A stretch of DNA of 64,000 nucleotides from positions 1,116,001-1,180,000 of the forward strand of contig NZ_CP063353.1 of NCBI RefSeq assembly GCF_014931565.1, read 5' to 3'. This DNA is from Clostridium sp. 'deep sea'. GTDB taxonomy: Bacteria > Bacillota > UBA994 > PWPR01. Below the pieces are notes generated by a model. The model saw only the letters and a program-made list of their open reading frames with translations, was not told the DNA's origin and did not search any database. Shown piece by piece: positions 3,872 to 8,664 of the stretch; positions within the stretch are counted from its first letter, which is position 1, and every line of letters begins with the position of its first letter. Both the position numbers and the translations under genes were made by a program.

Positions 3872-4750
3872 TTAATTTAATTTATTAACTAATTCTTGAA
3901 TATCTTCTTTTAAAAAAATGTAAGACTCATTACAGAACTGGCATTTTACTTCGGTTTCATTTTTATCTAGCAGTGACTCTAAATCCTCTTTACCTAGCGT
4001 TGTTAAAACAGCTTTTAAATAGTCTTTACTACAAAAACATTTAAACCTAAACTCATTTTTACCTTTTAGTATCTTTAATTCATGCTCAGCTAGCAAATAT
4101 TCCAGTATTGTCTCGGGACTATTTCCCTCTTTTAATAAAGTAGAAACTGGCTTAGCTTTACCTATTGTAGACTCTAACGAATCTATGATATCCTCAGTTG
4201 CTCCAGGTAACAATTGAATTAAATAACCACCTGCTTGTAATACAGTTCCTTCTTTACCAACTAAAACCCCAGCAGCAAAAATAGTGGGGATTTGCTCGGA
4301 CACTACAAAATATTTAGCTATGTCATCGGCTATTTCACCAGATAATAGCTCACAAGAGCCACTATATGGATCTCCAAAGCCTAAATCTTTGGTAACGTGT
4401 AACATTCCTATCTTACCTACACCACCAGCAACATTTAATTTTTCGGGTGACTTAGGTGGAATTATTACATGTGGATTTTTAACATGTCCACGCACATTTC
4501 CGTTATAGTCACAATCAGCACTTATAGTTCCTAAAGGACCATTACCTTTTACTTGTATTGACAGCTTTTGATTGTCTTTTAAAGTACTACTCATCACTGC
4601 TGAAGCAACCATTAGGCGACCCATAGCAGCTGATGCTGTAGGATTGCTTTGATGCCTTTTCTGTGCCTCTTTAACTGTATTTGTTAAGTTTATAGCAACA
4701 GCTCGTACCATATTGTTATAGGCCATTGCTCTTACTAAATAATCTTTCAT
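3872..4750 (-). CDS. hslO: Hsp33 redox-regulated chaperone
   Basis: Cytosolic holdase activated when oxidative stress releases zinc from its four C-terminal cysteines. These are present as CFC (residues 238-240) and CQFC (270-273), the CxC and CxxC pair that defines the family. Length 292 is normal. The N-terminus DYLVRAMAYNNMVRAVAIN and the segment GNGPLGTISADCDYNGNVRGHV are typical. The gene is followed by the two subunits of the oxygen-sensitive fumarase with almost no gap, which suggests co-expression. Ribosome binding site AAAGGAG upstream of ATG at 4750. Confidence 0.97.
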   Translation of the reverse strand: MKDYLVRAMAYNNMVRAVAINLTNTVKEAQKRHQSNPTASAAMGRLMVASAVMSSTLKDNQKLSIQVKGNGPLGTISADCDYNGNVRGHVKNPHVIIPPKSPEKLNVAGGVGKIGMLHVTKDLGFGDPYSGSCELLSGEIADDIAKYFVVSEQIPTIFAAGVLVGKEGTVLQAGGYLIQLLPGATEDIIDSLESTIGKAKPVSTLLKEGNSPETILEYLLAEHELKILKGKNEFRFKCFCSKDYLKAVLTTLGKEDLESLLDKNETEVKCQFCNESYIFLKEDIQELVNKLN

Positions 4751-4870: not shown

Positions 4871-5050
4871 ATGAGTCGTCGCCGCTCAATAATGTCTGAC
4901 AAGCTTAAATACGAGTTAGCAGAAGAGCTTGGTGTAGCTGAAACTGTCAGCAAACAAGGATGGGGCGCTGTATCATCACGCGACTGTGGTAATTTAGTTA
5001 AATTAGCACTACAACGTGCCGAAAGAACACTGGCTGAACGAAATAAGTGA
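4871..5050 (+). CDS. Alpha/beta-type small acid-soluble spore protein
   Basis: Short protein of 59 residues that coats and protects DNA in the dormant spore and is degraded by GPR at germination. The core KYELAEELGV, then GWGAVSSRDCGNLVKLAL, corresponds to the two conserved helices of the family (typically KYEIAxEFGV and a second helix after GxxGGxxxK); the second glycine pair is altered here to SSRDCGN. The ATG at 4871 is chosen because AGGAG lies nine bases upstream; an in-frame TTG at 4862 overlaps that site. Monocistronic, with its own terminator. Expression from a forespore sigma-G promoter is expected but no clear match was found. Confidence 0.9.
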   Translation: MSRRRSIMSDKLKYELAEELGVAETVSKQGWGAVSSRDCGNLVKLALQRAERTLAERNK

Positions 5051-5182: not shown

Positions 5183-5213
5183 GGAACGGCACGGAGGCAC
5201 GTTCCCTACGAGT
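5183..5213. repeat. Variable-stem hairpin followed by CTACGAG
   Basis: GGAACG (5183-5188) pairs with CGTTCC (5200-5205) and is followed directly by CTACGAG. The same design, with other stem sequences, occurs at 47246-47270 and six times in the array at 35.6-36.7 kb. It abuts the 3' end of the AIR-synthase-like gene. Confidence 0.6.
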
Positions 5214-6193
5214 TATAATTTGACCTTCCAAATTTCATCGCTTTCGGGTGGTTCAACCACCTGTTTTTTGTCATCTATATCTATTAAATACTCTTGCTTG
5301 TCTGTAGTTTTACCTATAATAGCAGCAAAAATATTATTTTCATTAAGTTTTTTCACTAGTTTATCACCATATTTAGTAAAAATTAACATAGAGCCACTAG
5401 AAATTAACCTCAATACATCTAGGTTAAATACATCACATAAGGCTTTAGTTTCTGGAAGCACTGGTATCTTGTTATAGTCTATTATAAAGCCACATTTTCC
5501 AGCTTGAGCGACCTCATATAATGCACCTAATACTCCACCTTCTGTAACATCATGCATAGCAATAACTCCAATTTCAACAGCAATTCTGCTCTCTGGTACT
5601 ACACTTAAGTTTTTAAAATGATTTTTTGCTTTTTGTAATAATTTTCCATCTATATCATTCAGTTCTTTAAGCCCTGAATTTGCTAATATTGCTGTGCCTT
5701 CTATACCAGCACCTTTAGTTAAAACTATATCTAAATCACCTGTAACTTTAGCAGATATAACTAGCGTTTCAGTTAGCGGTATACCAAGTGCTGTAGTTGA
5801 AATAACTGGGCGATTAACTGCATCAGTAAGCTCTGTATGACCACCCAAAATATCTATATTAAGTTCACTGGCTGCTTGGCTGGCATCATTCATGATAGTA
5901 GCTATTGTTTTATTGTTGCAACCCTTTGGTAACAACAAGGTAAGCAATACTCCAACTGGTTCTGCACCATTAGCAGCTACATCGTTACAGGCAACGTGAA
6001 TTGCAAACCACCCTATGTTAGCAACCTCACCTGTAATTGGGTCAGTAGATAATACTATTGGCTTATTATTAGTAGTTAATATTGTGCTATCTTGACCAGT
6101 AGAAGATCGTACAAGAACTTCTTCTCTTCTATTTGTTAATTTATTTAGTATAAGCTGCTCCAATAATTCTGGAGGCAATTTTCCTATCTCCAT
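5213..6193 (-). CDS. AIR synthase-related protein (PurM/HypE/ThiL superfamily)
   Basis: ATP-binding protein of 326 residues from the PurM/HypE/SelD/ThiL superfamily. The N-terminal half carries STDPITGE near residue 50 and HVACNDVAANGAEPVGVLLT, the metal/ATP-binding signature of the superfamily; the second half has MHDVTEGGVLGALYEVA, the counterpart of the HDxTEGG motif of HypE. It lacks the C-terminal PRIC tail of true HypE, and no hydrogenase genes are nearby, so the substrate is unknown. Genes like this are usually annotated only as AIR synthase-related. Single gene, GAGGAGGG before ATG at 6193. Confidence 0.8.
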   Translation of the reverse strand: MEIGKLPPELLEQLILNKLTNRREEVLVRSSTGQDSTILTTNNKPIVLSTDPITGEVANIGWFAIHVACNDVAANGAEPVGVLLTLLLPKGCNNKTIATIMNDASQAASELNIDILGGHTELTDAVNRPVISTTALGIPLTETLVISAKVTGDLDIVLTKGAGIEGTAILANSGLKELNDIDGKLLQKAKNHFKNLSVVPESRIAVEIGVIAMHDVTEGGVLGALYEVAQAGKCGFIIDYNKIPVLPETKALCDVFNLDVLRLISSGSMLIFTKYGDKLVKKLNENNIFAAIIGKTTDKQEYLIDIDDKKQVVEPPESDEIWKVKL

Positions 6194-6493
6194 AATACCC
6201 TCCTCATAAAAACTAAGAAGCTTTTTTTATATAAAGTTTTCGTATCTTATTATAACAACTATTTTGTTAATAGCAATGTTTTTTATGCTTTATAAAAGTG
6301 TTTAAAAGCTTTTAATACATCCAGCTAAACTAATCCAAAACCTTTTTTTAGTTGAAAAGTTGGTATATCATTTTAGTTAATTGCTAAATAATACAATTAC
6401 ACCCTTTGATTTCTCGATTATCCGTATTTTTTATAGGATATTAATTCTAATTATTCTCAAAATATAAGTAAACATAAAAGGAGGTATTTGTTA
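6194..6493. other. AT-rich intergenic region, divergent promoters
   Basis: 300 bp between the divergently read AIR-synthase-like gene and a spore protein gene. It should hold both promoters, but I saw no convincing consensus match, repeat or RNA. Confidence 0.4.
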
Positions 6494-7009
6494 ATGGCAA
6501 AAGGAAGTTGGAATAAAAGAAAACATATTGTACCACAAGCACATCAAGCTATGGATAATTTTAAGTATGAGATAGCTGGGGAATTAGGTTTACCTGTTAA
6601 TAATAGTATGGGTGAAGACTATTGGGGTAACTTAACATCGAGAGAATGTGGTTCAGTTGGTGGAAGCATGGTTCGTAGAATGATAGCCATGGCTCAGCAA
6701 CAAATGGCTGGTGGAGCCACTACTATGGGAAATAGCTCTATGAATACAACTGGTTCATCATCAATGAATTCAACTAGTTCAGCAATGAATACAACTGGCT
6801 CAACTATGCAAAATACTTATACAAATACAGCAAGTCAAACATCTGGAACATATGGCATTTATGGAACCCAATACGGATCAAACACAAATACAACTGGTCA
6901 ACAAGGTCAACAAACTCAACAAGGCCAGCAAAGCCAAATGAAGGGCTCAACAACAAGCGGTAGTCAAAATTCAACATCAGGTAGCTCTGGAAACGGAAGC
7001 TCTTACTAA
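6494..7009 (+). CDS. Alpha/beta-type spore protein with long Ser/Thr/Asn/Gln/Gly-rich tail
   Basis: 171 residues. The first 75 contain an alpha/beta-type small acid-soluble spore protein domain: FKYEIAGELGLPVNN (about 24-38) and TSRECGSVGGSMVRRMIAMA (about 49-68). The remaining ~95 residues are low complexity: repeats of SMNTTGSS type, then TQYGSNTNTTGQQGQQTQQG, then a Ser/Gly end, with no Lys or Arg except one Lys. Normal family members are 60-75 residues and end soon after the second helix. A glutamine/asparagine-rich chain recalls gamma-type spore proteins, which serve as amino-acid stores. The start is ATG 6494 (AAAGGAGG nine bases upstream) rather than the TTG at 6488. Storage function of the tail is my inference. 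Confidence 0.88.
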   Translation: MAKGSWNKRKHIVPQAHQAMDNFKYEIAGELGLPVNNSMGEDYWGNLTSRECGSVGGSMVRRMIAMAQQQMAGGATTMGNSSMNTTGSSSMNSTSSAMNTTGSTMQNTYTNTASQTSGTYGIYGTQYGSNTNTTGQQGQQTQQGQQSQMKGSTTSGSQNSTSGSSGNGSSY

Positions 7010-7020
7010 TATATCTTCTT

Positions 7021-7057
7021 AAAAATACCCTGCTCGCAAGAGCAGGGTATTTTTTTG
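7021..7057 (+). terminator. Terminator after tailed spore protein
   Basis: AATACCCTGCTC, loop GCAA, GAGCAGGGTATT, then a run of T. Perfect 12-bp stem 12 bases after the stop codon. Confidence 0.93.
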
Positions 7058-7290
7058 GGGTTGGCTCGTTTTTTAAAAACTCGCGGGGTGGATATTTCAC
7101 CTTGTGAAATATGGGGTGGATTTGAGCTTCGCTCTGCATGGGGTGAGTTTGCTATGCAAACGGTATACTATACGTAGCGCTTCGCTAACGTGATAAAGCG
7201 ATGCCATAGCGAGCATATAACCCCGTGAGCAGAATGCAAACCCACCCCACTAAGCCAAAGGCAAGTCCACCTCGTTGATTTATGTAACAA
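7057..7290. repeat. Modular variable-hairpin repeat, locus 1
   Basis: A chain of small palindromes of unrelated sequence joined by a conserved G-rich linker. On the plus strand: GGGGTTGG, palindrome GTTTTTTAAAAAC; GGGGTGG, palindrome ATATTTCAC/GTGAAATAT; GGGGTGG, GAGC/GCTC; GGGGTGA, GTTTGC/GCAAAC. From about 7170 the same design runs on the minus strand, with linkers at 7238-7246 and 7267-7272 and a GTTGATTT/AAATCGAC hairpin at 7274-7296. Same family as 35245-35325, 37883-37984 and 58631-58815. No open reading frame here looks coding. Confidence 0.7.
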
Positions 7291-7296
7291 ATCGAC

Positions 7297-8664
7297 CTAC
7301 TTAATTAACTCCGCATTCTTCCAAGTTCCTTTATTAAACAAATGTAAGTTTAAGAAAAATCTTGTAACTATATCTATTAACATAGCAGACCATACCCCTA
7401 TAACTCCATAGCCCAATACTACTCCAAAAAGGTAAGAGAAAGGTACTCTTATTAGCCATAAGCCTAAACCAGCATATAACATAGGGCGTTTGGTCATACC
7501 AGCACCTCTTAAGGCTCCTATCATTACATCCGCTACCTGTTGAGGAAACTGTATTAATGCCATCATCATTAAATAGTATTTTGCTAGTTCTATTACGGCA
7601 ATTTCATCTGTAAATAAGCCTAGTATAAGTTTTGGCAAAAAGAATAAACATGAGGCAGTTATAGTCACCATTATTAAACACCATCTACGCAGTTCTTTTA
7701 CATAACGTTCTGCTAACTTAATATCTTTATTGCCCAAGCTTTGGCCCACAAAGGCTGTAGCAGCAATACTAAAGCCAACGCCGGGCATAAATGATAGTGA
7801 TTCTGCTGTTAATCCAAGTTGATGTGCTGCCAAAGAGATTGTTCCAAATTTAACAATCCATCTCATTATAATTATTGTAGCAAACTGCCAAAAAAGTGAT
7901 TGAGCAGCTACTGGTACTCCAATGTTTAAAATTCTTTTTATATCAAAAAAGGAAATCTCATATTTTTTTAAATGTCTCAAAGAAATTACTGCATTTGGTC
8001 TGTACAATACATATATGGCAATTACAGCACCAGTAGCTTGAGCTACTATGGCACCTATTGCAGCACCATTCACGCCAATTTCGGGGAAACCAAAGTTACC
8101 AAATATAAAGCAATAACTTACTACTATATTAATTATATTCATAATAAAAGCTATTAACATAGGAGTTCTGGTATTTCCTGCACCCCTTAAAGAGGCGCCA
8201 ACTATTTGCATAATTGCCATAAACGGCATACCCCAAACGTTTAGCTTTAAGAACCGCAATGCTACATTTAGTAAATCACCATCCGTACCAAACCACTCTA
8301 AAATTGGGCGTGCAAACACAAAAATAAGAATGGTAAATGTTAATACTAAAAATACTCCAATTATCAATGCTTGTAGGGCAATTTTTTTAGCCATGTTGTA
8401 GTCTTTAGCACCTATTGATCTTGCTACAAACACAGTAGCACCAGTACCTATTGCAGAAAATATAACCCATACAATGCCACCTATTCTGCTACCTAAACCT
8501 ACTGCCCCAATAGCAGTTGCGCCTAATCTGCCTACCATTGCAGTTGCAACAATACCAACCATCATCTGTAAAACTGATTCCATAGTAGCAGGCCAAATCA
8601 TGCTGAAAATATTTTTACGAAGTTGCTGTTGACTAATGGCCTCATTCTGTTTTATGTCTTTCAT
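7297..8664 (-). CDS. MATE family multidrug/sodium antiporter
   Basis: 455-residue, twelve-helix transporter of the MATE (NorM/DinF-like) family, which exports cationic drugs or toxic metabolites using a sodium or proton gradient. Two homologous halves are visible: the first begins IFSMIWPATMESVLQMMVGIVATAMVGRLG, the second has GVPVAAQSLFWQFATIIIMRWIVKFG. GASLRGAGNTRTPM and GALRGAGMTKRPM are the paired family motifs in the two halves. Ribosome binding site GGAGG, eight bases before ATG 8664. It is read towards the hairpin repeat at its 3' end and lies 27 bp downstream of nth on the same strand, so the two may be co-transcribed. Confidence 0.95.
   Translation of the reverse strand: MKDIKQNEAISQQQLRKNIFSMIWPATMESVLQMMVGIVATAMVGRLGATAIGAVGLGSRIGGIVWVIFSAIGTGATVFVARSIGAKDYNMAKKIALQALIIGVFLVLTFTILIFVFARPILEWFGTDGDLLNVALRFLKLNVWGMPFMAIMQIVGASLRGAGNTRTPMLIAFIMNIINIVVSYCFIFGNFGFPEIGVNGAAIGAIVAQATGAVIAIYVLYRPNAVISLRHLKKYEISFFDIKRILNIGVPVAAQSLFWQFATIIIMRWIVKFGTISLAAHQLGLTAESLSFMPGVGFSIAATAFVGQSLGNKDIKLAERYVKELRRWCLIMVTITASCLFFLPKLILGLFTDEIAVIELAKYYLMMMALIQFPQQVADVMIGALRGAGMTKRPMLYAGLGLWLIRVPFSYLFGVVLGYGVIGVWSAMLIDIVTRFFLNLHLFNKGTWKNAELIK

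Follow-up and report, generated by a model that had tools for sequence, protein, structure and literature searches.

The window, a 64,000-nucleotide stretch of contig NZ_CP063353.1 of Clostridium sp. 'deep sea', contains at positions 6494-7009 of the forward strand a single open reading frame that begins with ATG and encodes, in 171 codons, a protein of 171 aa. This product is an alpha/beta-type spore protein (SASP) whose C terminus bears a low-complexity tail that is unusual and specific to the lineage. A syntenic ortholog of 196 aa is present in the second genome of the genus (G001, locus L038, isolate PL25a_bin.78). The gene, its parts, and its signals are as follows.

6436-6464, + strand: possible sigma-G-type promoter, GGATA - 17 nt - CAAAATA (position, conservation)
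6480-6484, + strand: ribosome-binding site GGAGG (read directly; kept in the G001 ortholog)
6494-7009, + strand: whole gene, alpha/beta SASP with a long, predicted disordered tail (open reading frame, PF00269 match, ortholog)
6494-6709, + strand: alpha/beta-type SASP head, residues 1-72 (PF00269; SspC, 2z3x_A)
6563-6583, + strand: GPR cleavage site KYEIA|GE, residues 24-30 (unchanged in the G001 ortholog)
6710-7006, + strand: Ser/Thr/Gly/Gln/Asn low-complexity tail of 99 aa, residues 73-171 (composition, AlphaFold2, repeats)
6740-6798, + strand: 21-bp imperfect tandem repeat in the tail, unit about MNTTGSS (DNA repeat search)
6896-6932, + strand: 9/18-bp tandem repeat in the tail, GQQTQQ-type units (DNA repeat search)
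7021-7054, + strand: terminator hairpin with a 15-bp stem, a GCAA loop, and a T run (-28.1 kcal/mol, z = -7.6)

The head was recognized over residues 9-71 by the SASP profile PF00269 (model positions 1-59 of 59, 91.1 bits, 4.2e-26), for which the curated cut-off is 22 bits, and resembles in sequence the SspC protein in PDB 2z3x, a structure of SASP bound to DNA. A low-confidence AlphaFold2 model places its helices at residues 14-30 and 49-72. Known alpha/beta SASPs have fewer than 100 residues (PMC8452069); at 171 aa, the protein lies above the usual size of the family (under about 100 aa), a trait that describes the family and does not define it.

The pair of promoter-like boxes also occurs upstream of the G001 ortholog, in identical form and at an equal distance (-58), and the sister SASP genes carry at -59 the related pairs GCATA-18-AATAATA (own genome) and GCATA-18-CATAATA (G001). 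Since the consensus score of the candidate (10/12) does not by itself exceed that of shuffles, the evidence for a sigma-G promoter is weak; position and conservation only are suggestive of one. The terminator hairpin starts 11 bases past the stop codon, and the gene forms a single-gene unit. No Rfam element was detected between positions 4500 and 9500 of the window.

The window and G001 have in common the gene order Hsp33, SspF-like SASP, AIR-synthase-like protein, SASP, MATE transporter, and endonuclease III. The SspF-like gene (4871-5050, + strand; MSRRRSIMSDKLKYELAEELGV..., PF00269 28.4 bits) occupies the same place at the G001 locus; in the window, it is overlapped by a longer, spurious minus-strand open reading frame. 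The AIR-synthase-like protein (5213-6193, - strand; HypE/PurM fold, PF00586 and PF02769) adjoins the SASP genes in both species. Downstream of the terminator, the intergenic stretch 7056-7300 contains several inverted repeats, has a z of -5.7 as RNA, and belongs to a dispersed, strongly folded repeat family, with 30 mostly partial genome matches of 66-97% identity and about 20 sites in genome G000 (including L154, L155, and L156).

The initial annotation described an alpha/beta SASP followed by a repeat tail of about 95 residues and held that the proposal would fall if no homolog carried the tail or if a frameshift accounted for it. The architecture was confirmed, with a tail of 99 residues, and both objections fail because the G001 ortholog carries both parts and the gene has no frameshift. 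The heads of the two proteins are 82% identical over 74 codons, with 25 synonymous and 13 nonsynonymous codon differences, and the tail of the ortholog comprises 124 aa, of which 84% are Ser, Thr, Asn, Gln, Gly, or Tyr (STNQGY). Both alternative frames of the tail contain stops, the codon positions are coding-like (third-position GC of 0.23 in an AT-rich genome), and the terminator lies directly 3' of the stop codon. An assembly error, a frameshift, or a chance open frame is thus excluded for practical purposes by a syntenic ortholog of identical architecture in a separately assembled genome, its tail compositionally like that of the window protein, by the stops in the other frames, and by the outlying composition of the tail. 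The fusion, which the initial annotation had regarded as undescribed, was likewise absent from the literature that we searched, a scope outside of which the main survey of gamma SASPs falls.

The tail of the window protein consists mainly of Ser (22%), Thr (21%), Gly (17%), Gln (13%), Asn (10%), Met (6%), and Tyr (5%), contains a single Lys and no Asp, Glu, or Arg, and is 89% STNQGY. A ranking of the 511 frames that reach 100 aa in 464 kb of this genome, each by its best 95-aa stretch, put this protein first for these residues (89.5%, versus 58.9% for the runner-up frame and a median of 36.8%). The tail contains 9 four-residue peptide repeats, compared to 2.2 in shuffles (P = 0.005), and repeated peptides are more numerous than in shuffled tails in both species. 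A search for tail-like sequence elsewhere in the genome returned only the tail itself. A match to the NCBIfam family esterase_phb (E = 0.029), far below the cut-off of the family, was rejected as a compositional artefact. AlphaFold2 predicted no secondary structure past residue 72; since confidence was low throughout the model (mean pLDDT of 41.9, two sequences), the assignment of the tail as disordered relies mainly on composition. Hydrophilins, which respond to or protect against water loss, usually have a Gly content above 6% and high hydrophilicity, limits inside which both tails would fall, with 17% Gly and a GRAVY of -1.10 in the window protein and 20% and -1.35 in the ortholog (whole-protein GRAVY of -0.86 and -1.05, respectively). 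Aligned with each other, the two tails scored no better than shuffled sequences, since 75 of 500 shuffles did equally well, and their homology is therefore unsupported by alignment. Composition and internal repeats, and no demonstrable sequence, are what they have in common.

Among the many SASP heads found in 398 genomes of the phylum and in the whole class, a long tail was present in only these two proteins. A tree calculated from 90 SASP heads places the SASPs that carry an EDYWG insertion in a single clade of 31 members (support of 100/99), where the two tailed proteins pair as sisters (99/98); the tree was built on few columns and does not settle where in the clade this pair belongs. The 29 other members end 5 to 31 residues after the core, compared to 102 and 127 residues for the pair, which is most simply accounted for by a gain of the tail in this genus. 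Across 93 distinct alpha/beta SASP sequences of the phylum, the C-terminal length after the core has a median of 25 and ranges up to 132, the median not being an unbiased estimate because the set was picked for long frames. Other alpha/beta SASPs in the phylum bear shorter tails, of 50 to 70 residues in several families; those following MVRRMI comprise 74 aa in L124, 72 aa in L134, and 54 aa in L140. The alpha/beta SASP of L124 (genome G125), which belongs to another family, carries a glutamine-rich repeat tail (QQLQQQQFQQPLQQQQFQQPLGGQQFQQQ) of 74 residues that includes QQLQQQQFQQPLQQQQFQQP, apparently a second, independent low-complexity tail. The orthologs of family f66 (L086-L090 and L092) have a different type of extension, in which about 35 aa are conserved and the end is acidic (ISISGEKTTKIGNGAAGSEAEYMNK). 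The C terminus of alpha/beta SASPs is thus a tolerant site at which low-complexity tails grew in several clades, a growth hidden by annotation as "small protein."

The initial annotation further proposed that the protease GPR could release both DNA and amino acids from the protein. The EIA motif is the GPR cutting site in other spores (PMC8452069), the KYEIA|GE site is intact in the head, and a GPR gene is present in the genome, in agreement with that part of the proposal. This gene (L060; G000:C1:2743596-2744465) matches positions 2-243 and 301-343 of the family profile with only about 12 codons between the two segments, and its predicted product seems to lack about 45 residues of the profile. 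Neither tail contains an acidic GPR-type site. Looser GPR-like motifs, QYGSN in the window tail and SYASN and QFASN in the ortholog tail, jointly reached P = 0.015 against shuffles, and are a lead only because the pattern was chosen after they had been seen.

The description of the tail as gamma-type was not supported. The SASP_gamma profile (PF04259) found no match in the genome, even at E ≤ 1, and the tail was rejected as a gamma SASP for want of a profile match and of acidic GPR-type sites. It is also poorer in amide residues and nitrogen than SspE: Gln plus Asn amount to 23% of the window tail and 20% of the ortholog tail, versus 39% in SspE, and the tail has 1.24 nitrogen atoms per residue versus 1.55. 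Ser and Thr make up 43% of the tail, which is not nitrogen-rich. A tail that replaces the missing gamma SASP, as a store of amino acids attached to the DNA-coating protein and digested at outgrowth, would accommodate the absence of SASP_gamma genes over the cut-off from this genome and 40 relatives (the Bacillus subtilis control being positive), which leaves the gamma-SASP niche empty and fits the absence of gamma SASPs from clostridia (PMC3533761, PMC8452069). The scarcity of hydrophobic residues, the abundance of Gln, Asn, Gly, Ser, and Thr, the Gln-rich character of some of the shorter tails in the phylum (as in L124), and the loose GPR-like motifs point in the same direction. Set against this, the acidic site is lacking from both tails, the amide and nitrogen contents fall short of those of SspE, and a long tail is missing from most of the relatives that lack gamma SASPs. 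We consider such a replacement rather unlikely, and the case for gamma-like storage is weak. Because any abundant SASP also supplies amino acids, storage as a special role is difficult to tell apart from this general supply. A store as a by-product is possible, since the tail would leave with the C-terminal GPR fragment, and nothing points to it specifically.

The best explanation of the whole, to which we give an even chance, is that a DNA-coating head acquired a slippage-grown, uncharged, hydrophilic, and disordered tail. The protein would be made in the forespore, where its head, like those of other family members, is expected to bind and protect spore DNA in the usual way. Slippage at short repeats in this genus would have expanded the C terminus into a long tail, which would stay unfolded and, within the dry core of the spore, project from the SASP-DNA filament. 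That the tail acts there as a hydrophilic brush on the filament is the least certain step, and we hold it at somewhat below even chance. At germination, GPR would cut the head at its conserved site, freeing the DNA together with a C-terminal fragment bearing the whole tail, and peptidases would then convert the freed tail into amino acids. This scheme draws on two tailed genomes only, in which the head, the GPR site, and the composition of the tail are kept.

The lack of demonstrable homology between the two tails beyond composition also fits a nearly neutral low-complexity expansion. Slippage would then have lengthened a free C terminus, with selection keeping no more than an open frame and a soluble, uncharged product. 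The tandem repeats at the DNA level, the wide variation of C-terminal length over the alpha/beta SASPs of the phylum (in the 93 sequences enriched for long frames), and tails that are not demonstrably conserved while the heads are 82% identical all agree with such drift. It accounts less readily for a composition (84 to 89% STNQGY, few charges) and a length that were kept in both species despite sequence divergence, and about 100 extra residues would be costly if the protein is abundant in spores, as it may be. We regard this expansion as possible, on the doubtful side. Low-complexity domains on eukaryotic nucleic-acid-binding proteins promote condensation, and a prion-like tail might by analogy condense SASP-coated DNA through Tyr-bearing motifs ([S/G/Q/N/T]Y[S/G/Q/N/T]) set among Ser, Gly, Gln, and Asn residues. 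The ortholog tail, with 10 Tyr, has 9 motifs of this kind, here on a DNA-binding protein, and the window tail has 3. The latter has only 5 Tyr and no Arg, and the likeness is one of composition alone; we hold condensation to be improbable. It is also a long shot that Firmicutes lacking gamma SASPs have a class of DNA-coating spore proteins whose disordered tails both alter the SASP-DNA filament in its physical state, as a hydration brush or a condensate, and serve as an amino-acid reserve. If this were true, two SASP functions would be joined in one molecule. A tailed SASP bears on amino-acid supply at outgrowth and on core packing in gamma-less, clostridia-like spore formers, and comparison of the head alone with the head plus tail makes the question addressable on a single gene.

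Similar to SspA, SspB, and SspC of Bacillus and to the clostridial alpha/beta SASPs, the window protein has the whole domain with its two helices, the GPR site, and the GSVGG..MVRRMI core, and its clade is marked by an EDYWG insertion between the helices; it differs from them by 99 extra C-terminal residues. Other tailed alpha/beta SASPs also extend past helix 2, often with a sequence rich in Gln, Pro, Gly, and Thr, but these proteins fall into different SASP clades, and their shorter extensions mostly include one further conserved stretch (A..V..GF..). Hydrophilins and the disordered tails of nucleic-acid-binding proteins share with the tail a Gly-rich, hydrophilic, low-entropy composition, with no sequence relation shown. 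Gamma SASPs (SspE, PF04259) resemble it in being of low complexity, in containing Gln and Asn, in their repeats, and in their few hydrophobic residues. They are, however, rich in Gln and Ala and carry charges, whereas the tail is Ser/Thr-rich, nearly uncharged, outside the gamma profile, and devoid of TEFASE-type (TEFA|SE) GPR sites. In contrast to a gamma SASP, the tail is fused to a full alpha/beta head, so that the protein, judged from its sequence, would be expected to bind DNA.
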